64,000 nucleotides of DNA, taken from a virus. The DNA is taken from IMG/VR virus record IMGVR_UViG_3300025117_000056, positions 1-64,000 of that record. One strand, written 5' to 3'. The translations under genes were made by a program, and so were the position numbers. The notes beneath the pieces were generated by a model, which was not told where the DNA came from, did not search any database, and saw nothing but the letters and a program-made list of their open reading frames with translations. This document shows positions 37,649 to 62,143 of the stretch, one piece after another (position 1 is the first letter of the stretch; each line of letters starts with the position of its first letter).

Positions 37649-38278
37649 TTATTCCTGATATTTATTACTTTTTCTTAAATTATCTATAGCAAATAATGGT
37701 TGTAAATTAGTATAGTGAAAACATTTCTTCTGTTCTTCTTCATTTGTTAAATCAAATTTACTAATTGGTTTAATATGATCTATATGCCAAACTATTCCTC
37801 TATTTTCCCATGTCATCCCTTCCTTAAATTGTTTTTCTAAATATATTTTTAATTCTTCAATTGTACATCCAACCAATTCCATAGTTTTTTTATATTTTCT
37901 AGTACCTTTTAAAACTTTATTTATTTTTGTACGAATTAACCACATAAATCTATATTCAGGATCAGAATGATATCTTTGGTTAACATATCTTCTCTTATAA
38001 TCTCTAACCTTCTCTATATTATTTAATCGCCAATTTTTATTTCTTATTTTTATTTTATCTTTATTTTTTAAATATCTCTCATGACTTTTAATCTTTTTTT
38101 CTTCTTCAGTCAATTTAATTTTTTCTTTTTTTGGTTTTCTATTTTTTTCTAAATAAATTTTCCTTTCTATTTTTCTACATTCTTTACAATCATTTCTTAA
38201 ACCATCTTTGGATGAAGTTTTTTTACCAAATTCATTTAACTCTTTATCTTTTTTACATTTTGTACAAATTTTTCCCAT
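37649..38278 (-). CDS. HNH homing endonuclease
   Basis: 209 residues. N-terminal zinc ribbon (CTKCKKDKELNEF ... CKECRK), Lys-rich linker, and a C-terminal HNH core WHIDHIKPISKFDLTN ... CFHYTNLQPLFAIDNLRKSN. Free-standing homing endonuclease lodged between two fibre genes. AAGAGA site only. It likely cuts intron- or gene-less relatives nearby. Confidence 0.85.
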   Translation of the reverse strand: MGKICTKCKKDKELNEFGKKTSSKDGLRNDCKECRKIERKIYLEKNRKPKKEKIKLTEEEKKIKSHERYLKNKDKIKIRNKNWRLNNIEKVRDYKRRYVNQRYHSDPEYRFMWLIRTKINKVLKGTRKYKKTMELVGCTIEELKIYLEKQFKEGMTWENRGIVWHIDHIKPISKFDLTNEEEQKKCFHYTNLQPLFAIDNLRKSNKYQE

Positions 38279-40649: not shown

Positions 40650-40681
40650 AAAAAAAAGGGAGAGCAGAACGCCCCCCCCCC
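40650..40681 (-). terminator. Terminator after major capsid gene
   Basis: On the - strand a run of ten G, a loop, CTCCC and then T8. The G-run pairs with CTCCC (five pairs, one G-U). The C10 homopolymer on the + strand is the longest GC run in the window and its length may vary between isolates or reads. Confidence 0.6.
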
Positions 40682-40708: not shown

Positions 40709-41797
40709 TTAGTTAACGATACCAGTGAATACGATATTGCGTCCTAAAGCATTACAGAAAATTGCTAAGTCACAATAAGTACGATATTCAATACCGTTTT
40801 GATTTTCAAGAACAATTAACATTTCTTCATTTTTTCCTGGAAGATTGAAAGTAATATCAGAAGATCCAACTCTTTCAAAAGATTCAAGGTCAAGTCCGAA
40901 AGCTATTCCTTCTTTAACATAAGTACAGCTAATGATTTCAATCAAACCATTTTGGCTATGAAATACGATAGTTTGTGAACCATTCTCATATTTCTTGACA
41001 TCATAAGACTCATCAAATAGTCTTTTTGCTGTTTGTTCATTTAACAAATCAGACCATGTTTTAGGATTAACGAAAAGAGAAATCTTTCCTTCAAGTCCTT
41101 TAGCTACTGCATCAGCAATACCATCAGAAATTTTTTCGAATGATAAAGCTCCACCTACTGGATAAACGTTACCTGTCCATAAGCTGTAATCAGTAGAAAC
41201 ACCAAAAATGTTACCAGTAGTAGTTGTTAACATTTTATAGATACCCATAAATTCGTTACCCTTAGCACCATGCTCATAAATAACTAGTTCATCACCAGCT
41301 AATTTAGAAGCTTTCAAAGTAGCTAAGTTATCACCTACAGCAGAAGCCATATCAACATAAAGTCTTTTGTTTCTGATATCAACTTTAGTAATTTTGATAA
41401 TAGTAGTGTTCATTGCTGAATCAGTTAGATTATAAATATCTAACTTCATTTTCTCACCACCAACCCAAATTCCAGGTGCCCATTCAGCTACTGTAATATC
41501 AAAATAAGCAGAAGCATCATCAACAACACTTATAGTAGCCAATCCAGATTGACCATAGAAACATTGGTATTCATGCTTCTTATAAGTTGAATTTAAAAGG
41601 TTACGAACAACATGTTTTGTTGCTTTACCGTAAGCAGCAGCATCATTAATGGAACGTGAAATAGCTGCGAATGATAATTGGGCTTTCAATATCATTTCAC
41701 AACCTTTTACTGTTGCTTCTTTAGTAGCTCCTGAAATTGCATCTTTTAAAGTTACAATTTCTCCAGAATCACCGTTGTAAGAAACTCCGTGCTCTAA
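40709..41797 (-). CDS. Major capsid protein, exon 2
   Basis: 362 codons. Begins LEHGVSYNGDSGEIVTLKDAISG after removal of the intron; an ATG happens to be the last codon of the intron, so exon 2 looks like an independent gene of 363 codons if splicing is missed. The protein continues through GATKEATVKGCEMILKAQLSFAAISRSI, a helical segment and beta-rich core typical of an HK97-type capsid protein. Position after scaffold and portal fits. Joined to exon 1 (42677-42844) it gives 418 residues. Confidence 0.8.
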   Translation of the reverse strand, partial: LEHGVSYNGDSGEIVTLKDAISGATKEATVKGCEMILKAQLSFAAISRSINDAAAYGKATKHVVRNLLNSTYKKHEYQCFYGQSGLATISVVDDASAYFDITVAEWAPGIWVGGEKMKLDIYNLTDSAMNTTIIKITKVDIRNKRLYVDMASAVGDNLATLKASKLAGDELVIYEHGAKGNEFMGIYKMLTTTTGNIFGVSTDYSLWTGNVYPVGGALSFEKISDGIADAVAKGLEGKISLFVNPKTWSDLLNEQTAKRLFDESYDVKKYENGSQTIVFHSQNGLIEIISCTYVKEGIAFGLDLESFERVGSSDITFNLPGKNEEMLIVLENQNGIEYRTYCDLAIFCNALGRNIVFTGIVN

Positions 41798-42676
41798 CAT
41801 ATTGTTATTACTAGCTTTTGATGCTAGTAAGTTTGAGTAATCAAACTCTCAGTTTTATCTATTTTATAACTGAGATCAGAAACAACTTGAATTTTATAAA
41901 GCATATCAGGATGAATATAATCTTTTATTAAATTAATAAATCTTTCTTTATCTTCTTTTTTTCCAATTCTAATATAAGGATAAAAATTATGTTCAAGATA
42001 TACTTTACTATGAATATTAAATTTTTCTAATAATAAATTAGAAAGTTTAATAACATCTTCTTTTGGAAATCCACCTAAAGAAAATTTAAAAGCTTTTAGT
42101 TTTCCTTTATGACTTTCTTTTGAACCATCGTCCATAAAAAGTATAGCTAAAGAAATTTCATTAAAATGTTTTAGAACATAATCAGTTATTCTTTTTTTAC
42201 CATCAACAATCATTCTATAATATAAAGAAGTAAATTTATGATGTACAGTTGTCCAAAATCTATAAAAATTTTGTCTTTTTCCCGAAGGTGATGTCATAGA
42301 TTTAGCTAAACACATTTTACTTCCAACACCATATTCTGTTGATATCAAATCTAATTTCCATTTACCATAATCTTTTTGTTTCTCACAATGACCAAAAAGT
42401 ATATGTTTATTTTTTTTTCCAGCAAAAGAAGAATCTCCTAACAATGTCCCTATTAAAAACGCTTTTTTATTTTTCTTTAATTCCAACATTCGAACTCCCT
42501 ATTGGGTTTCTTTTATTTTTTCAAGTTGACTTTCGCATCTTCTTTCGAAGTCCTTTCGTTAAGTCGTTCAGGCTGGTTTTACCCTTGCCCCTTGTTACCT
42601 TTATTATATTATAGAAAGGCTTCCAAGTCAATTAGAAAGGATTTTACTTGGGCTTAGATTGCACTATCTATTGTTA
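41798..42676 (-). mobile_element. Group I intron in the major capsid gene
   Basis: 879 bases. The 5' exon ends TTGGGT; 22 bases into the intron is GCCCAA, which pairs with it (P1) with the required U-G at the splice site. The bases just 5' of that guide (TCTAA) pair with TTAGA at the start of exon 2 (P10). The 3' splice then follows a G (the G of the ATG at 41800-41798), as needed. Splicing keeps the frame: NTINLG joined to LEHGVSYNG. TTGACTT/AAGTCAA (P3-like) and GACTT/AAGTC (P7-like) pairs lie before the endonuclease gene, so the core is in the first 190 bases. Core helices were not modelled fully. Confidence 0.85.
41824..42489 (-). CDS. LAGLIDADG homing endonuclease (intron-encoded)
   Basis: 221 residues with its own GGGAG site. 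Two LAGLIDADG helices are visible: AFLIGTLLGDSSF (about 10-22) and LAILFMDDGSKE (about 112-123), each ending in an acidic residue for metal binding. It would cut intron-less capsid genes and promote intron homing. Its stop lies 26 bases before the intron 3' end, so the gene's end also forms the terminal intron hairpins (AGTTTGA/TCAAACT and CTAGC/GCTAG). Confidence 0.9.
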   Translation of the reverse strand: MLELKKNKKAFLIGTLLGDSSFAGKKNKHILFGHCEKQKDYGKWKLDLISTEYGVGSKMCLAKSMTSPSGKRQNFYRFWTTVHHKFTSLYYRMIVDGKKRITDYVLKHFNEISLAILFMDDGSKESHKGKLKAFKFSLGGFPKEDVIKLSNLLLEKFNIHSKVYLEHNFYPYIRIGKKEDKERFINLIKDYIHPDMLYKIQVVSDLSYKIDKTESLITQTY

Positions 42677-42844
42677 ACCCAAATTAATCGTATTCTTGTA
42701 TTCCAATCCCATTCTTTTATTAGGTGATACGAAAGGTATCATCTTAGAAATCTTAACACCTTCTGGTATTAAATCAGTTAATTCGCCATAAATGGATTTA
42801 TGAAAACCATTTAGAGCTGCCATATCATTATGATTATAAGACAT
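42677..42844 (-). CDS. Major capsid protein, exon 1
   Basis: 56 codons (MSYNHNDMAALNGFHKSIYG to NTINLG) with a strong AAGGAG site. Without splicing the frame ends at TAA directly after GGT. N-terminal FHKSIYGELTDLIPEGVKISKMIPFVSPNKRMGLEYK reads as the N-arm of a capsid protein. The exon joins exon 2 at codon phase 0. Confidence 0.8.
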
Positions 42845-43075: not shown

Positions 43076-44026
43076 TTATATTTTACTCCAAAAATCTTTT
43101 TGTTCTATCGTTTTAAATTTTCGGTCAATAACTTCTTTATTTGGTTTACTTCCAGTATCCTTTATACTATTACTAGTTGGTGGTGCTTCTTTTTTAACTG
43201 GTTCAGCTTTCTTTCTTTTCTTTATTATTTGTCCAACTTTATCTTCACCCAACAATTTTTCAATAACTTCTAAAGGCATTACACTAGCTATCGATTTGAT
43301 TTCATTTAGTATTTGATCTTTAACCAAAGGAACGATATCATTAAAACTAACATCAATATTATTCTTCAATGCTATTCTCATATATCCAGTCATTCTATTA
43401 ATAATCTCAGGATTCATTGGTAATTGATTCTTTTCAATAGCAGCCATCAAATCTCTTTGATATTCAGCAGCATATCTATCTTGTAGTGCTTTCATTTCAA
43501 TTTCTTCAGCACGTTTTTTAGCTTTCTGTTCTTCTTCTTCCTTTTGTCTAAGCTTTTCTTGAAGTTCCATTAACTCTCTATCTTTTGGATCTAGTTGAGC
43601 TTTCTCTAATTTGTCATTCATTATCTTTTCAGAAAGTCCATCAATATCAATACCCATTTTACGTAAAGCATTAGCTGTATCTTTTTGTAAATAGTTAAAG
43701 AAGTCTTGTAAATCCTTTTGTACCTTAGCATCTTTCTTTTCTAGTTCAGCAGCTTTTTGTGCTCTTTTCTGTGACATTTCAGCAAGTTGAACCATTCTAA
43801 TTAGTTCTTCTTCGTTAGCTAAGTCAATTTGTTTTTCAATTTCTTTACCATCAACTTTAATGTTTAACTTTTTTAAAGTTGACTTAACTGCGTCTTTCAT
43901 TTCAGGACTAGCTTCTGCTGGTTGTTCTGGTGCAGCTTCAACATTACCTTCTTCTGGTTGTACAACAGCTTCTACATTTTCTGCTGGTGCTTCTTGTGAT
44001 GGTTGTTCTTGTGTTACTTCAGCCAT
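43076..44026 (-). CDS. Capsid scaffolding protein
   Basis: 316 residues from the ATG after AAAGGAAAATTT (an ATG 21 bases upstream precedes that site). Acidic Pro/Glu/Ala-rich N-terminus, then a long charged coiled coil (about 90-200) rich in Lys, Glu and Gln, basic C-terminus ending FKTIEQKDFWSKI. Composition and place between portal and capsid are those of a podovirus scaffold. The small basic C-terminal helix would bind the capsid. Confidence 0.7.
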   Translation of the reverse strand: MAEVTQEQPSQEAPAENVEAVVQPEEGNVEAAPEQPAEASPEMKDAVKSTLKKLNIKVDGKEIEKQIDLANEEELIRMVQLAEMSQKRAQKAAELEKKDAKVQKDLQDFFNYLQKDTANALRKMGIDIDGLSEKIMNDKLEKAQLDPKDRELMELQEKLRQKEEEEQKAKKRAEEIEMKALQDRYAAEYQRDLMAAIEKNQLPMNPEIINRMTGYMRIALKNNIDVSFNDIVPLVKDQILNEIKSIASVMPLEVIEKLLGEDKVGQIIKKRKKAEPVKKEAPPTSNSIKDTGSKPNKEVIDRKFKTIEQKDFWSKI

Positions 44027-44070
44027 AAATTTTCCTTTGTTTACCATCCATATAGGATAGGTGTATTATT

Positions 44071-44134: not shown

Positions 44135-46186
44135 CTAACTATTTGATATATTTGTCATTCCTTCATTTGCTGTTAATGGTGCATTTTCAAAACCTTCAGG
44201 CATTCTTGGCTTTTGTAATGTTGTATCTTGTTGATTCAATGCCTGTTCTACTGGTGGTAGATTTTGGGGTGCTTCCATTTGTGATGGTGATGTTGTCTGT
44301 CCTGGATTTGGTTGGGTTATTGGTTGAACTATCGGTTGAATACCCATAGCTTGTAACAACATAGGATCTGTATTTTTCCAAGTTTGAATATGTTCATTGA
44401 TATGAGTTAATACTAGATTAACTAACTCAGCATCAGATTTTAATATAGTATCATTCAATACACCTCTATGACATTGAATATGTTTGGGGTGATTTTCTAT
44501 AGCTAATACAATAGGTTTTGTTCCCATTAAGAAACCTTCGTTTTCACCACGTATTAAAAATTCCTCTTTTACAATATCTTCTGTACCCATTTCTAATTTA
44601 CCAGTATGTATAATTGTTATGTATTGTTCTGGGGTAAGTGTGCCATATTGAAGTAAATTATCAGCCATTTGTGCTCTACCAGCAAGTGTATTAGTTAAAG
44701 GATTTGCAACATCAACAATAACTCTATTTATAGAACGTAGGTCTTCTCCTTTAAATTCTTTCATATACGACCTTCCAGATTTACCAACAATAGCCGCAAT
44801 TCTTGGAGAGTTAGCAAAATCTTGAAGTATTTCAATTAAACAAATACCGACATTTTCAATTAAGTAAATATATTCTTGTTGTAAACCCGACATAAATTGT
44901 ATAGCATTAGTTTGTACCATAGCCAATGCTGATCCAGAACGTAAAGATGCTTCTGGATTTCCTCTAGCTGTTGAATTTATAGCCGATAGAGTTTCCATAT
45001 CTTTAACATAACGATCCATTAAATTATACAATTCAGGAGCTGTTTTTGTTAAGTTTAAAGCTTCAGGTTTAGCACCACCTTGAGGGTTATAATCCATGAT
45101 ACTTAAACCATTAGCTAATTGTGTGACATCAATATTTGATCCACTAGGATTTAATATTGTTTGTACACCAAAAGCAACGTTGTTACTTAATGCTGCTGAA
45201 TTTAAACTATTATGTGCGTCCTGTATTGATAGTAAATCAAATAAAGGACTATATCCTAATGGTGTTCCTAGTATTCTTCCTGGATAAATTGGGAATACAG
45301 GTATCCTCCTATATGGTAGTTCACCCTCATGGAGTATTGCTTCTTCAGAAACAAATAACATATATTTACCTTCAGGCATTGCCTCACTACGCCTGTGATA
45401 AAACTCTAACACAGATATATCATCAGTTTCATCTCCACTATATAAACCAACACGTACTCTTTTCGAATGATCTTTCGATTCTATAGCCATTATTTCTTTT
45501 TCTAAATGTGGATACTTAGCGATCAAGTCATATCTATTTTTAAATGATCTAGTTATAATCCAATCGAAATCTCTACCTTCTTTGGAAAGATCCATAACAA
45601 CATCTAAAGCTGATAGAACATTAAATTCAACATCACCTTCATACTGTGGATCTGGTATTTCTACTTTCTCTCCATTTTCTTGTAGTTCTTTGTATTCTTG
45701 TATTTCTTTTTTATTAGTTACTTCACCTAACATACCATTCCAAGACATTTTCATCCAACCCAAAGATGTAGATAATGCATATTCACATGCCATCTTTAAG
45801 TATTCTTCTAGTTTCTTTTCTCTCATATAATAGTCAAGTAGACCATTTCCTAGATATGTCTGTGTAACCGATTTAAAGTCTGTATTTACTGCTCTACATT
45901 CCATTGCCGGTCTAGTTGATGTTGTCATAGTCAACATATGTCTAGCTATGTTTCTGAGATGATTAACTACTATCTGAGCTAGTTCTCCATCTTCACCAGC
46001 AAACGTAATTTGATGAGCTTCACCTATTGAATTATAGTATCCACCATAATATGCAGCATATAAATCTCTAAGTTTATCCATGAATCCACAAGAGTTAAGT
46101 GATCTATCCCATGATTCAATTTTAGATAACAAAGCTGAAGCACATTCTTTTGATTCTCTTGCTGCAAAATATTTATTATTTTCCAT
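44135..46186 (-). CDS. Portal protein
   Basis: 683 residues. Typical large podovirus portal layout: helical clip region (RDLYAAYYGGYYNSIGEAHQI), LRNIARHMLTMTTSTRPAMECRAVNTDFKS, membrane-like wing domain, WDWIITRSFKNRYDL, and SINSTARGNPEASLRSGSALAMVQTNAIQFMSGLQ before a Pro/Gln-rich tail. It forms the dodecameric ring through which DNA enters and leaves the head. GGATG site. Assigned by layout and location next to scaffold and capsid. Confidence 0.75.
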   Translation of the reverse strand: MENNKYFAARESKECASALLSKIESWDRSLNSCGFMDKLRDLYAAYYGGYYNSIGEAHQITFAGEDGELAQIVVNHLRNIARHMLTMTTSTRPAMECRAVNTDFKSVTQTYLGNGLLDYYMREKKLEEYLKMACEYALSTSLGWMKMSWNGMLGEVTNKKEIQEYKELQENGEKVEIPDPQYEGDVEFNVLSALDVVMDLSKEGRDFDWIITRSFKNRYDLIAKYPHLEKEIMAIESKDHSKRVRVGLYSGDETDDISVLEFYHRRSEAMPEGKYMLFVSEEAILHEGELPYRRIPVFPIYPGRILGTPLGYSPLFDLLSIQDAHNSLNSAALSNNVAFGVQTILNPSGSNIDVTQLANGLSIMDYNPQGGAKPEALNLTKTAPELYNLMDRYVKDMETLSAINSTARGNPEASLRSGSALAMVQTNAIQFMSGLQQEYIYLIENVGICLIEILQDFANSPRIAAIVGKSGRSYMKEFKGEDLRSINRVIVDVANPLTNTLAGRAQMADNLLQYGTLTPEQYITIIHTGKLEMGTEDIVKEEFLIRGENEGFLMGTKPIVLAIENHPKHIQCHRGVLNDTILKSDAELVNLVLTHINEHIQTWKNTDPMLLQAMGIQPIVQPITQPNPGQTTSPSQMEAPQNLPPVEQALNQQDTTLQKPRMPEGFENAPLTANEGMTNISNS

Positions 46187-47660: not shown

Positions 47661-47984
47661 TTATATCCTATTCCCTTTTTTCATATTTTCTATAGCAGGA
47701 AGATATTGTAAATTCCAAGGAACATGTAGTCCAGTAATATTTTTACCTTTTATCGGTATTATATGATCAACATGATATCCTTTTGGACAATTTTTATATA
47801 TTAATTTTAATTCTTCTTTTTGTTCTTTTGTTATCCATTTTGGTTGAACTTTTTTGTTTCTTCTACTATTTTCTCTTACTTTTGCTCTAGAATTATCTAT
47901 ATCTAAATAATATTCTCTTTTAGAACGTTCTCTACTTTTTTGATGTGTTAATTCTAAATCTTCATAATAATATTTTTTTTGCAT
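47661..47984 (-). pseudogene. HNH endonuclease, C-terminal part (frameshifted)
   Basis: 107 codons with a Lys/Arg-rich linker and the HNH core YHVDHIIPIKGKNITGLHVPWNLQYLPAIENMKKGNR. It continues the gene starting at 48189 in another frame. The break is at A8 on the - strand; with A7 one frame would run through. The apparent ATG lies at that tract. Without its zinc-ribbon N-terminus the domain may be inactive, unless slippage on the A-run restores the frame. Confidence 0.7.
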
Positions 47985-48189
47985 TAATTCTTCCTAATTC
48001 GCATATTCTATCTTTATTTTTTCTATAATATTTTCTTCTTCTAGAATTAACGTTGTCTTTTGTTTCTCTTATTCTATCTATTTTACATTTTCTACAATAT
48101 GAACTTCTTCCAGATTTTTTTGCTCTATCAATACAAAAATCTTCTATATTTTTTTCTTGTTTACATTTAGGACAGAACTTAGTTGTCAT
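47962..48189 (-). pseudogene. HNH endonuclease, N-terminal zinc ribbon (frameshifted)
   Basis: 75 codons: zinc ribbon CPKCKQEKNIEDFCIDRAKK ... CRKCKIDRI and basic linker. The frame ends a few codons after the A8 tract; the rest of the HNH gene follows in the next frame (47984-47661). Same architecture as the HNH genes at 37649 and 9728. Confidence 0.7.
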
Positions 48190-50890: not shown

Positions 50891-52867
50891 TCATCTACGA
50901 CGCTTAACTGTGAAAATGTCACGAATACTCTGTTGAACGTCCGTAAGTTGTTGTTTTTGTTTAGGAGAGTAGAATCCACCTTTAGGTAAATCGTAATCTT
51001 TAGGGTATGGATTTTTATGATAGTTGATGTTACGTATCAAATAAATCAATGCATCTAAACAGTCAAAATGTGAACCATCAGCAGCTTTCTCATATTTAGT
51101 TCTTGCTTTATTCCAAGTAGCATTCATTAAATGAAATATTAGGTTTATACATCTAGGATTTATCTTTAGTTTTTTACCAGAAACTTTCATACGTAAAGCG
51201 TTTATTTGTGCGTTTTTATCATCTTTTCTAGTTGGTATAAACGATAAGTTGTGTAAGTTATTAAAGTCTACGATAATTTGCCAACTAGTATCACATATCC
51301 TTGACTCTGGTAATTTGTCACCCCAAAGCATCTTTTCCTTTAATTTAATAGCATCAGCCATATCAATAGTTGTATATTCTTTACCATTGAATACTAATTC
51401 ATCTTCAACAACAATTTCATCATTTCTAAAATCATAATACGCAAACAAAAAAGCTGTCCAATCTAGTATACCAAAGTCACCAGAAGTATAACATGTATAG
51501 TGTGCTGGTCGTTTCCATGTTTGTATTATGTCTTTCATTTTTTCATCAGTAGCTTCTGGTATAACTAATGAATTTGTGTCAGCTAATAATTTACATAAGT
51601 ATTCTCTTTTAAAATCTATAGAATCTTTACCACCAACAGCATTAGCCATTTCTTCTATTTCATATCCTTTAAATCTAGGACAATCATATATAGTTCTTCT
51701 GGTATATGCTTTTTTATAGTCAGCTTCTTTAATATATTTATTAAATGTATGTGCTGCTGAAGATGGTGGAGTTGAAATCATGATTGTTAATCTACGCTTA
51801 GACGTATTCATAGTTGGAAATAATACAGATTTATAATAGTAGTCAAATTCAGATGAATCCATAAATCCACACTCATCCATGAATACCCTATCAAATCTTT
51901 GACCTCTAGCATTTTCAATATTACCAGAGTCTGTACCAATACAATGAATTTCAGAACCATTATCAAATACGAATACGTTTTCTTGAGTATTAAATTTAGG
52001 TCTTAATTCTTTAGGACAATCTATACATATTTCATTGAAACGAGATTTAATTAATTTTCTAGCTTGATTCTGTCTAGGTAAAACGTAAGCTATTTTAAAG
52101 TTGGGATTACGAATACATTCTTCGATTGCTAATAAAGAAATTAGGAAAGAGTTATGAGTTACCAATCCATCACCAGTAAGATATAAATGTGTATCATTAT
52201 CAACAGTAATATCCCAACATTGTTCCATTCTTCTATTTTCTTTTCTAACACTAACAGAATCTGTCACACCATTTACAACAGTTACTATTTTATCATACTC
52301 ATTAAAATCTTTTAGTGGTTTCTCCAAAAGATTACCTTCACCATTTTTAACTAACCAGTAATGTTCATCAGTACAACCAGCTAAAACTTTACCATTACCA
52401 ACTAAATCAAATACTTCTTCAACACCACAATCTATTTTATCAACAACTTTAGTTGGACTTACACTACCGTCTTTATTATATCCATAAATAATATCACCAA
52501 TATTAATATCTTTGATTAACTTTGGTCCAGTTTCTGTGATGACGTAAGTACTTGAATTTATTGACTTTCCAGTTTGTCTTGAGAGGCACCATACTAACAA
52601 ATTATTCTTAGTAGTATGGTAATTTTCATATAAACTTTTCTGATTACTATCCAACTTCCAATGAAGTACTCCTCTTTTCCACAATTTAACAGCAGCTTCT
52701 CTTTGTAATCTCTGTTTTTTAGCATCAGGTTTAGTTGTACCTTTAGGTCTACCTCTAGGTACAATCTTGACTAAATCTTCTTCAGTATTTATTATTTTAC
52801 TATCAACAACAGGTTCTTTATCCTCAACAACTTCTTCTATGATAGTTTTATCTCCACTATTCATCAT
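50891..52867 (-). CDS. Terminase large subunit with intein
   Basis: 658 residues from ATG at 52867 (GTG at 52873 and ATG at 52864 are alternatives). Host protein is about 520 residues after removing a 138-residue intein. Exteins meet at the Walker A motif (SRQTGK joined to SFLISL). Walker B-like MDECGF (Asp-Glu), STPPSSAAHTF (C-motif region), and nuclease-like SGDFGILDWTAFLFAYYD with SHFDCLDALIYLI (Asp residues) follow. It pumps DNA into the head and cuts it. The gene overlaps the upstream putative small subunit. Confidence 0.9.
   Translation of the reverse strand: MMNSGDKTIIEEVVEDKEPVVDSKIINTEEDLVKIVPRGRPKGTTKPDAKKQRLQREAAVKLWKRGVLHWKLDSNQKSLYENYHTTKNNLLVWCLSRQTGKSINSSTYVITETGPKLIKDINIGDIIYGYNKDGSVSPTKVVDKIDCGVEEVFDLVGNGKVLAGCTDEHYWLVKNGEGNLLEKPLKDFNEYDKIVTVVNGVTDSVSVRKENRRMEQCWDITVDNDTHLYLTGDGLVTHNSFLISLLAIEECIRNPNFKIAYVLPRQNQARKLIKSRFNEICIDCPKELRPKFNTQENVFVFDNGSEIHCIGTDSGNIENARGQRFDRVFMDECGFMDSSEFDYYYKSVLFPTMNTSKRRLTIMISTPPSSAAHTFNKYIKEADYKKAYTRRTIYDCPRFKGYEIEEMANAVGGKDSIDFKREYLCKLLADTNSLVIPEATDEKMKDIIQTWKRPAHYTCYTSGDFGILDWTAFLFAYYDFRNDEIVVEDELVFNGKEYTTIDMADAIKLKEKMLWGDKLPESRICDTSWQIIVDFNNLHNLSFIPTRKDDKNAQINALRMKVSGKKLKINPRCINLIFHLMNATWNKARTKYEKAADGSHFDCLDALIYLIRNINYHKNPYPKDYDLPKGGFYSPKQKQQLTDVQQSIRDIFTVKRRR
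52151..52564 (-). mobile_element. Mini-intein in terminase Walker A motif
   Basis: 138 residues without endonuclease. Block A begins with Ser (SINSSTYVITETG), block B has TDEH in GCTDEHYWLV, block F has MEQCWDITVDNDTHLYLTG, and block G ends THN followed by Ser. These satisfy protein splicing needs, including Asn at the end and a nucleophile at +1. Splicing gives an uninterrupted Walker A motif, so ATPase activity of the terminase depends on it. At 138 residues it is close to the smallest inteins. Confidence 0.9.
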
Positions 52868-53291
52868 CTTCACCTGAAACTATGCGCAATAAATCAGCAG
52901 TAGCTTCTTGTTTATCTTCCTTGGATAGTTTAGGAAGCTTATCACCATTCTTTAAAGCTACATATGCTTTTATAAGTACGTCAAATTTACGCAAATCAGC
53001 CCCTTCTAAGCGTTCTCCTTGCATGACTATACCATCATGCATCCTTTTGAATTCAACCTCAATAATCTCCATTTGGTGGCTTCTACGAGCCAGTATACCT
53101 TCTTCCTGCTTTGGTTGAATTGATGGAACACTACTATTTTTTAGTAACTCTTCTAAATGTTTGACTTTCTCTTCTAAGTCATCAATATAATTCTTTGCTT
53201 CAAAAAGCATATTACATGCTTTCTCAGCAAATTCCTTAGAATTCATTTCATTTTTCAATTGCTCTAGATTTAGTATATTTAATGTATCCAT
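52857..53291 (-). CDS. Terminase small subunit-like protein
   Basis: 144 residues. Helical, with a central coiled coil (NYIDDLEEKVKHLEELLKN, about 32-50), ARRSHQMEIIEVEFKRMHDGIV and KLSKEDKQEATADLLRIVSGEDDE at the C-terminus. Its size, helicity and place directly before the large subunit suggest a small terminase subunit. No HTH is certain. Confidence 0.5.
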   Translation of the reverse strand: MDTLNILNLEQLKNEMNSKEFAEKACNMLFEAKNYIDDLEEKVKHLEELLKNSSVPSIQPKQEEGILARRSHQMEIIEVEFKRMHDGIVMQGERLEGADLRKFDVLIKAYVALKNGDKLPKLSKEDKQEATADLLRIVSGEDDE

Positions 53292-60830: not shown

Positions 60831-60968
60831 ATGACGAAGATTTTAAACCTTCTTAAACAAAGAATAGAAGTACATTTAAGTGGTTTTAACGTAAGAGAGA
60901 AAGATATACCAGAGTTAACGAAACTTATATTAGAAGAAATAGAAGATTTACTGAAGGATAAGAAATGA
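60831..60968 (+). CDS. Small helical protein
   Basis: 45 residues, GGAGAT site. Amphipathic helices (KILNLLKQRIEVHLSGFNVREKDIPELTKLILEEIEDLL). Its stop overlaps the RtcB start (ATGA), so the two are coupled. Confidence 0.5.
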   Translation: MTKILNLLKQRIEVHLSGFNVREKDIPELTKLILEEIEDLLKDKK

Positions 60969-62143
60969 AATATATAGACACTGAAAATGTTATAATTAAA
61001 AGTTGGTGTAATGAACCTGAAGAAAGTACTATAGAACAAGCTAAAAATCTAGCAAATCTTCCTTTTGTATTTAGACAAGTTTGTTTAATGCCAGACACAC
61101 ATATGGGTCATGGTATGCCTATTGGTGGAGTTTTAGCTACTAAAGGTGTTGTAATTCCAAACGCTGTTGGTGTTGATATTGGGTGTGGAATGTATTGTGT
61201 TAAAACCTCATTAAAAGTAAACGAAATAGATACTGAAACTATAAAAAAAATAATGACTATAATTAGAAAAAAAGTACCTGTAGGATTTGCTCACCACCAA
61301 AAAGAACAGCCATTACAATATATACCAAAAATTGACAATAATTTATTTTTTACTCATGAGTTATATATTATAAATAATGAATTTTCATCGGCTATGAAAC
61401 AAGTTGGTACATTAGGTGGTGGTAATCATTTTATTGAAATTCAAAAAGGATCTGATGGTTATGTATATTTTATGATACATACAGGAAGTAGAAATTTAGG
61501 TAAAAAAGTATGTGATTATTATAATAAAATAGCTAGAGATATAAATGATAAATGGTTTTCTAAAGTACCTAAAGAATGGGATTTAGCGTTTTTACCATTG
61601 GATACAAGAGAAGCTAAACTATATATAAACGAAATGACATTTTGTTTAGAGTTTGCGTTTTTAAATAGAAAACTTATTGCCGAAAGAATAAAAGAATCGT
61701 TTTTAGATGTTATTTCTTGCTCTTTTACTGATGAAATTAATATACATCATAATTATGCAGCTATTGAACATCATTTTGATTCTAATGTTGTTGTACATAG
61801 AAAAGGAGCTACATCGGCTAGAGATGGTGAATTAGGATTAATACCAGGATCACAAGGAACATCTTCTTATATAGTTAGAGGAAAAGGAAACGTAGAATCG
61901 TTCATGAGTTGTTCACATGGTGCTGGTAGAAAACTTAGTAGAACAAAAGCTAGAAATGAATTAAATTTAGAAAATGAACAAAAGATTTTAAACGATAAAG
62001 GTATTATACATTCAATAAGAAATCAAGAAGATTTAGATGAAGCTAGTAATGCATATAAAGATATTGATATAGTAATGGAAGAACAAAAAGATTTGGTTGA
62101 TATTTTAATAAAACTAGAACCTATGGGTGTAATCAAAGGATAA
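60965..62143 (+). CDS. rtcB: RtcB-type RNA ligase
   Basis: 392 residues, full length. Metal/GMP-site landmarks: MPDTHMGHGMPIGGV (about 41-55), VGVDIGCGMYC (about 71-81, ligand Cys), GTLGGGNHFIEI (about 149-160), and SHGAGRKLSRTKA (about 320-332, guanylylated His). RtcB joins RNA 2',3'-cyclic-phosphate or 3'-phosphate ends to 5'-OH ends, using GTP and Mn2+. In phage infection it can reseal tRNAs cut by host anticodon nucleases. Coupled to the small helical gene upstream. Confidence 0.9.
   Translation: MKYIDTENVIIKSWCNEPEESTIEQAKNLANLPFVFRQVCLMPDTHMGHGMPIGGVLATKGVVIPNAVGVDIGCGMYCVKTSLKVNEIDTETIKKIMTIIRKKVPVGFAHHQKEQPLQYIPKIDNNLFFTHELYIINNEFSSAMKQVGTLGGGNHFIEIQKGSDGYVYFMIHTGSRNLGKKVCDYYNKIARDINDKWFSKVPKEWDLAFLPLDTREAKLYINEMTFCLEFAFLNRKLIAERIKESFLDVISCSFTDEINIHHNYAAIEHHFDSNVVVHRKGATSARDGELGLIPGSQGTSSYIVRGKGNVESFMSCSHGAGRKLSRTKARNELNLENEQKILNDKGIIHSIRNQEDLDEASNAYKDIDIVMEEQKDLVDILIKLEPMGVIKG

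Follow-up and report, generated by a model that had tools for sequence, protein, structure and literature searches.

The locus described here raises the question of whether the gene of a viral structural protein is split by a self-splicing intron or has merely been invaded by an endonuclease gene. An earlier note, made from the DNA alone, had read it as a major capsid protein (MCP) gene interrupted by a group I intron with a LAGLIDADG gene. The window, that is, the whole 64,000-nucleotide stretch analyzed (positions 1 to 64,000 of IMGVR_UViG_3300025117_000056), lies in a virus record of 84,982 bases with 29% G+C, in which terminase, P22-like portal, and structural genes are on the minus strand. 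With a probability of roughly 0.96, we conclude that a group I intron, predicted to be self-splicing and to home by its encoded enzyme, is inserted after codon 56 of an MCP gene of the HK97 fold (SU10-like). The boundaries and core structure of this intron, the family and motifs of its endonuclease, and the class of the host gene are as read from the sequence (Table 1).

Table 1. Features of the split capsid gene and its surroundings (positions in the window; MCP, major capsid protein; R2, covariance model built with this virus left out)
Feature	Position	Strand	Details
MCP exon 2	40709..41797	-	362 codons plus stop
Group I intron, 879 nt	41798..42676	-	first bases TAACAA, last bases ATATG (G final)
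Two-motif LAGLIDADG homing endonuclease, 221 aa, 3' of P7 within the intron	41824..42489	-	Pfam LAGLIDADG_2 (PF03161), 2e-28
Catalytic core, P3 to P7 3' strand	42526..42646	-	held-out model R2, 112.8 bits, E 3.3e-21
P7 5' strand GACTT, guanosine-binding helix	42561..42565	-	pairs with AAGTC at 42532-42528
P3 5' strand TCCTTTC	42635..42641	-	pairs with GAAAGGA at 42557-42551; two-sided changes in 7/7 pairs, 42 sequences
Internal guide TCTAAGCCCAA	42648..42658 (intron nt 19-29)	-	GCCCAA, P1 partner of exon 1; TCTAA, P10 partner of exon 2
MCP exon 1	42677..42844	-	56 codons, ends TTGGGT; 34/34 relatives colinear over junction
Gene between portal and MCP, scaffold-like by position	43076..44047	-	no family match; function inferred
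P22-like portal protein	44135..46186	-	Pfam P22_portal 2.9e-12; phrog_156 6.1e-26
Terminase large subunit	50891..52873	-	phrog_2, 3e-33

On the minus strand, the MCP gene is made up of exon 1, the 879-nt intron, and exon 2, and joining the exons yields a single frame of 418 residues. Because the intron begins with TAA, its first codon already ends the frame if splicing does not occur. The splice sites, the G at the intron end, the exon 1 end TTGGGT, the joined frame, and the immediate unspliced stop had all been placed correctly, to the base, in the earlier note. A Shine-Dalgarno sequence, AAGGAG, precedes exon 1 at 42857-42852 (duplex -8.7 kcal/mol). At the end of the intron, an ATG at 41800 opens a false protein of 363 residues, in which 56 residues are lost and one Met is gained; the predicted annotation trap, a capsid protein truncated by 56 residues, is thus real. 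No Shine-Dalgarno sequence was found ahead of this ATG (duplex -0.1 kcal/mol; background median -0.9). Phages are often classified with the capsid gene as a marker, and annotation turns a split copy of it into a protein that is short and wrong. Four further contigs of the same virus carry the intron free of mismatches. Past the capsid stop, a poly-G tract (40672-40681) has 10 G in the window, compared with 17-21 in three further contigs from this virus; the difference is either a variable repeat or an assembly artefact.

Relatives of the host gene that lack the intron define the junction. Residues 19 to 416 of the joined protein align to one continuous frame of a Silvanigrella phage (CP017838), with no gap at the junction. 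A search of viral contigs with the capsid family returned 38 loci, four of which are this virus. All of the 34 others are gap-free around the junction by comparison to the joined protein; some of them share a contig or are near-identical, and a few end at contig ends further on. The intron model had no match in any of these 34 loci, nor in the 12 of an earlier set from the same contigs. Beside the junction stand an E and a G, both of which are unchanged in all 25 family members aligned. Our searches returned no intron-free allele of the same phage. One contig, IMGVR_UViG_3300043395_002142, carries two different genes of the window's capsid family, one at each end.

The guide TCTAAGCCCAA pairs with TTGGGT and TTAGA of the two exons at 11 of 11 positions, ten of them Watson-Crick and one a U-G wobble at the 5' splice site, so that both P1 and P10 stand as the earlier note had drawn them. 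When 3442 alternative in-frame choices of the two splice sites were compared, nine reached 11 pairs; among these nine, an exon-end U together with an intron-end G occurs only in the pair proposed in the note. In shuffles of the first 60 intron nucleotides, 11 pairs arose in 1721 of 200,000 when wobbles were free, and the strict form of the guide in 118 of 300,000. Chance as the sole source of the guide pairing is therefore not negligible, and the decisive independent evidence is the gap-free junction in 34/34 relatives together with a covariance model blind to this virus. The marks of group I introns present at the locus include a P1 whose 5' splice site carries a U-G pair, a G as the last intron base, and exact rejoining of the exons.

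The same holds for the conserved P3-P4-P6-P7-P8 core with its P3/P7 pseudoknot. Related introns were found by a blastn match in a human faecal phage and by two pattern scans; among the matches listed, 134 fitted the pattern, of which 85 passed a looser core pattern, 56 were left after filters for length and similarity, and 42 of these 56 were aligned. On the 42 cores, standard pairs occupy 97.4% of 1260 cells, compared with 74.4% when shuffled and at most 45.9% when slid, and two-sided changes occur in 267 cells, compared with 75 shuffled and at most 69 slid. Two-sided changes occur at least once in 20 pairs, slightly above the shuffles (18.1; 32 of 500 as high). Changes in P3, P6, and P8 were not selected for; the four unvarying pairs of P7 say nothing, since the selection patterns fixed GACT and AGTC. 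P5 is the weakest helix, with 84% of its cells paired. In this virus, a mismatch (A-A) replaces one outer P7 pair for which the family shows covariation, and the remaining 29 core pairs counted are all standard.

The model R2 was built from 38 related cores with this virus left out, and its automatic structure contains P3, P4, P6, and P8, but not P5 or P7. Four other held-out introns score 97.4-101.5 bits with R2. In the whole 85-kb record, a further model, R1, has one match only, the window intron. The guide, the gap-free junction, and the held-out core model at 112.8 bits together support the group I call.

Rfam was of no help in this respect. A scan of the window gave no group I match, even at E 10, and neither did scans of three loci with related introns. 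As controls, T4 nrdB (35.7 bits) and LittleE (30.7 bits) were found with Intron_gpI, both below the cut-off of 50, and T4 td was not listed at E 1. Because T4 td also yields nothing, the silence of Rfam on the window is uninformative, and we set RF00028 aside as a test of group I identity after the T4 control. The earlier note had named the lack of a group I model hit as grounds for giving up its reading; this would mislead, as Rfam gives no hit here and none for T4 td either. Capsid gene splits are probably undercounted, given that Rfam missed the lineage in every locus tested.

The open frame within the intron encodes a LAGLIDADG endonuclease, in agreement with the first reading. The match to LAGLIDADG_2 (2e-28) spans nearly the whole profile, the frame is intact, and a Shine-Dalgarno-like AGGGAG precedes the gene (duplex -8.5 kcal/mol). 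Among solved chains, the nearest are 6x1j (9.5e-16) and then I-SceI. The acidic residues of LAGLIDADG motifs have a catalytic role, and both acidic motifs, LLGD and FMDD, are kept in the alignment to 6x1j. Relatives of the endonuclease in annotated phages, namely crAss-like phages and one unclassified phage, share 27-30% identity; among these eight records, one genome appears twice and four are Bacteroides phages similar to each other. In viral contigs, a search that reaches close relatives only returned none but this virus. In two of four such loci examined, from a crAss-like phage and a bajarodcaudo virus (L153, 3364-3487; L155, 3341-3458), a weak core match of 17-18 bits directly precedes the LAGLIDADG gene.

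The identity of the host gene was approached through its relatives. Exon 2 of the window had no direct match in Pfam or PHROG, and three full-length relatives had none on a first scan. SU10_MCP is matched by 6 of 25 aligned members (best 3.4e-5), and the major head protein family phrog_14242 likewise by 6 of 25 (best 6.6e-5). A structure model of a relative, based on 25 sequences, reached a pLDDT of 81.4 and a pTM of 0.83; an earlier model from seven sequences was too poor for use (pLDDT 40.9). Compared with phage capsids, the later model scores Z up to 19.3, for the capsid of cyanophage A-1(L) (rmsd 4.4 over 276 residues), and encapsulins, which have the common fold, score up to Z 16.6. Among predicted viral proteins, it resembles the MCP of Arthrobacter phage Jasmine (E 3.6e-17). 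Foldseek alignments of the model to SU10 and other solved capsids give modest TM values, 0.2-0.6 among the matches listed. The profile of the capsid family found nothing at E 1 among sequences of solved structures, and no similarity was detected to one P22-type and one phrog_1357-type capsid sequence. From relatives at about 30% identity, the modeled fold, and gene order, the window protein is judged to be an SU10/HK97-fold MCP. The MCP assignment in the note is thus upheld by relatives that match SU10_MCP and capsid folds and by the portal gene upstream.

Elsewhere in the window, we observed an endonuclease VII-like gene (phrog_1035, 37649-38278) and, at 47661-48189, another gene whose product begins with a similar zinc ribbon and which is split over two overlapping frames. 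An RtcB-like RNA ligase gene is also present (60965-62143; phrog_1075, 1.4e-118), yet no tRNA genes were found in the window.

The proposed mechanism draws on general knowledge of group I introns, from which splicing, endonuclease activity, and homing are inferred. In the transcript, P1 would form between the guide and the last bases of exon 1, and P10 between the guide and the first bases of exon 2. With guanosine bound in P7, the core would cut behind the U of the U-G pair; exon 1, once freed, would then attack behind the last intron G and so restore the capsid frame of 418 residues. Judged by these sequence features, the intron almost certainly cuts itself out of RNA. The I-SceI-like LAGLIDADG enzyme is predicted to cut intron-free capsid alleles at the insertion site, and repair of the cut allele would copy the intron in.

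It could be argued that a free-standing endonuclease gene sits in the capsid gene, that no splicing takes place, and that a short capsid protein is made from the ATG at 41800, which does open a frame of 363 residues. We consider this highly improbable: translation from this ATG would lack the Shine-Dalgarno pairing available to exon 1 (-0.1 versus -8.7 kcal/mol), the residues of exon 1 are homologous and colinear in 34/34 relatives, and the inserted segment has a group I core and a guide for two exons. Even less probable is a degenerate group I intron that splices poorly in a defective genome, as the A-A mismatch in the outer part of P7 might suggest. All 29 remaining core pairs counted are standard, the splice signals and both open frames are intact, and four other contigs carry the intron without mismatch; moreover, an unspliceable capsid gene should be lethal.

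A group II intron or an intein is the least credible explanation of all. Nothing observed speaks for either. An intein would require the insert to be open in frame throughout, and here stops follow at once. A group II intron is contradicted by the fit of the core to group I P3-P8 with covariation, and no group II family reached the Rfam thresholds, a weak argument given that Rfam also listed nothing for td. A self-splicing, mobile group I intron accordingly remains the preferred reading.

By its core, the intron belongs to a widespread lineage often found in phage capsid genes. Its relatives were fetched by intron sequence and not by host gene. In 124 flanking fragments scanned (131 were made, and seven overlapping ones were dropped), the major head protein family phrog_1357 was matched by 43 among the matches listed, followed by endonuclease families (HNH, GIY-YIG, LAGLIDADG, endonuclease VII) and portal. 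Among the matches listed, we then have 93 phage records in sets of 45 and 48, all chosen for carrying the intron. Here, again among the matches listed, phrog_1357 is present in 28/45 and 35/48 records, and a same-strand model match lies within 700 nt of it in 26/45 and 35/48. Counted by matches, 58/94 and 76/108 of those listed are near phrog_1357, where random placement in the same records with strand ignored would put about 15 of the 94 in the first set. Record counts are preferred because a gene inside the core may make one intron count twice.

We searched 31 records further, 30 without phrog_1357 and one (G037) of the two in which phrog_1357 is far from the intron match. Among these 31, phrog_9953 occurs in two and phrog_267 in three, each time beside or around the model match. 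A further record, MW202674, has its intron in a P22 coat gene. In total, the match is beside or inside an MCP gene in 67 of the 93 records, among the matches listed, with four MCP sequence families represented; in five more of the 93, with the same restriction to listed matches, it is beside or inside a portal gene. As the sample was chosen, contains many short contigs and related, non-independent phages, and leaves out 13 loci with matches, these counts describe a strong tendency toward capsid genes and not a measured rate. A strict core pattern found nothing in bacterial and archaeal genomes, a search that diverged copies could escape.

Several loci in this lineage are unusual. Four to five intron-model matches surround the phrog_1357 capsid gene in L048 and L065, and three to four lie close together in L057 and L095; in each case, one intron may give two matches. 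Two lineage introns (L007, 3004-3200; L059, 205-360) have a 3' exon resembling a tRNA T-arm, GGTTCGAATCC and GGTTCGAGTCC, respectively, which suggests insertion in phage tRNA genes. L059 is one of the 21 records of the 93 that are left over once the MCP and portal cases are counted, and L007 is not in the 93.

A far-reaching interpretation, which we put forward tentatively and think rather unlikely as a whole, is that this is an undescribed, compact lineage, invisible to Rfam and specialized on MCP genes, which has entered at least five MCP sequence families (counting that of the window), often with several copies per gene and with varied endonuclease types, and whose endonucleases may serve as weapons by cutting capsid genes in co-infecting phages. 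A description of this intron, of its non-IA2 lineage, or of the capsid bias was not found in the literature searched, which included few subscription papers. The bias raises the questions of whether conserved, highly expressed capsid genes are preferred homing targets and whether the endonucleases of the lineage affect competition between phages.

Earlier work, in the parts of the report covered here, had described an intron in the MCP gene of the Cluster J mycobacteriophage LittleE, the splicing of which is proven by RT-PCR and N-terminal protein sequencing; its type is given as unclear, most likely group I, and Tuc2009 is cited alongside (PMC3706429). Similar to the window intron, it lies in an MCP gene, has a LAGLIDADG-like endonuclease gene, and shows an exon-end U and an intron-end G. 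By contrast, the endonuclease gene of LittleE lies on the other strand, and the record calls it HNH. The LittleE core is at most distantly related, with no R1 match at E 10 and a marginal R2 match (19.5 bits, E 0.13) that falls within the stretch also marked by Rfam.

In crAss-like phages of the Delta and Zeta groups, group I introns are reported in MCP and other core genes; as far as the sections covered go, they share with our locus the splitting of MCP genes and the presence of LAGLIDADG genes (PMC7886860). In the four endonuclease-relative loci that we examined, however, no flanking gene is annotated as capsid, and one of the four sits between two pieces annotated as replicative DNA helicase. 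R1 matches these cores weakly, at 17-18 bits in two loci, and not at all in the other two.

A closer counterpart is the intron in the P22 coat gene of podovirus ctn9Y15 (MW202674, L133), which is of the same lineage (97.4 bits with R1, 100.7 bits with R2) and is in neither seed. It differs in its length of 268 nt without an endonuclease gene and in its MCP family, phrog_283. In the deposited genome, 2692-4207, the annotation divides the P22 coat protein into two CDS and lists a small CDS in between. We placed the splice sites by eye, guided by the reading frame and a P1 of 8 bp; on this placing, the last intron base is the G of the ATG annotated as the start of the second CDS, and the misannotation described above appears to have occurred in this genome.

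The T4 td intron has only the 9-mer TTGGGTTAA in common with the window intron. This 9-mer occurs once in the T4 stretch read, inside td at a position that fits the td 5' splice site, which we take it to be, and once more in the window (7218, plus strand). Scores of the core model in the T4 td/nrdB region stay below significance, with 11.2 bits (E 0.09) as the best, and R2 gave no match there at E 1. Moreover, td encodes the GIY-YIG enzyme I-TevI, and not a LAGLIDADG enzyme as in the window. Subgroup IA2, the td type, is defined by P7.1/P7.2 between P7 and P3. The J7/3 of the window intron is 3 nt (AAC), which leaves no room for them, and we rejected an IA2 kinship for this reason and for the lack of a significant core match. 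The likeness to td stated in the earlier note thus extends to the shared 5' splice sequence, and the intron is otherwise not td-like. In one database, IA2 accounts for more than half of the viral group I introns, according to the part of that report covered here (PMC11835236).

Jug phages are described, in the portion of the source covered, as having many short group I introns (about 206 nt) in essential genes, 37 of 76 with metatranscriptome support (PMC12363816). They may or may not share the lineage of the window intron, since the likeness is one of description and not of sequence. In conclusion, given the capsid-gene introns in print from LittleE and crAss-like phages, as far as those reports were covered, this kind of split gene is already known. 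The intron reported here is a newly found member of that known kind, and the bias of its lineage toward capsid genes is the interesting part.
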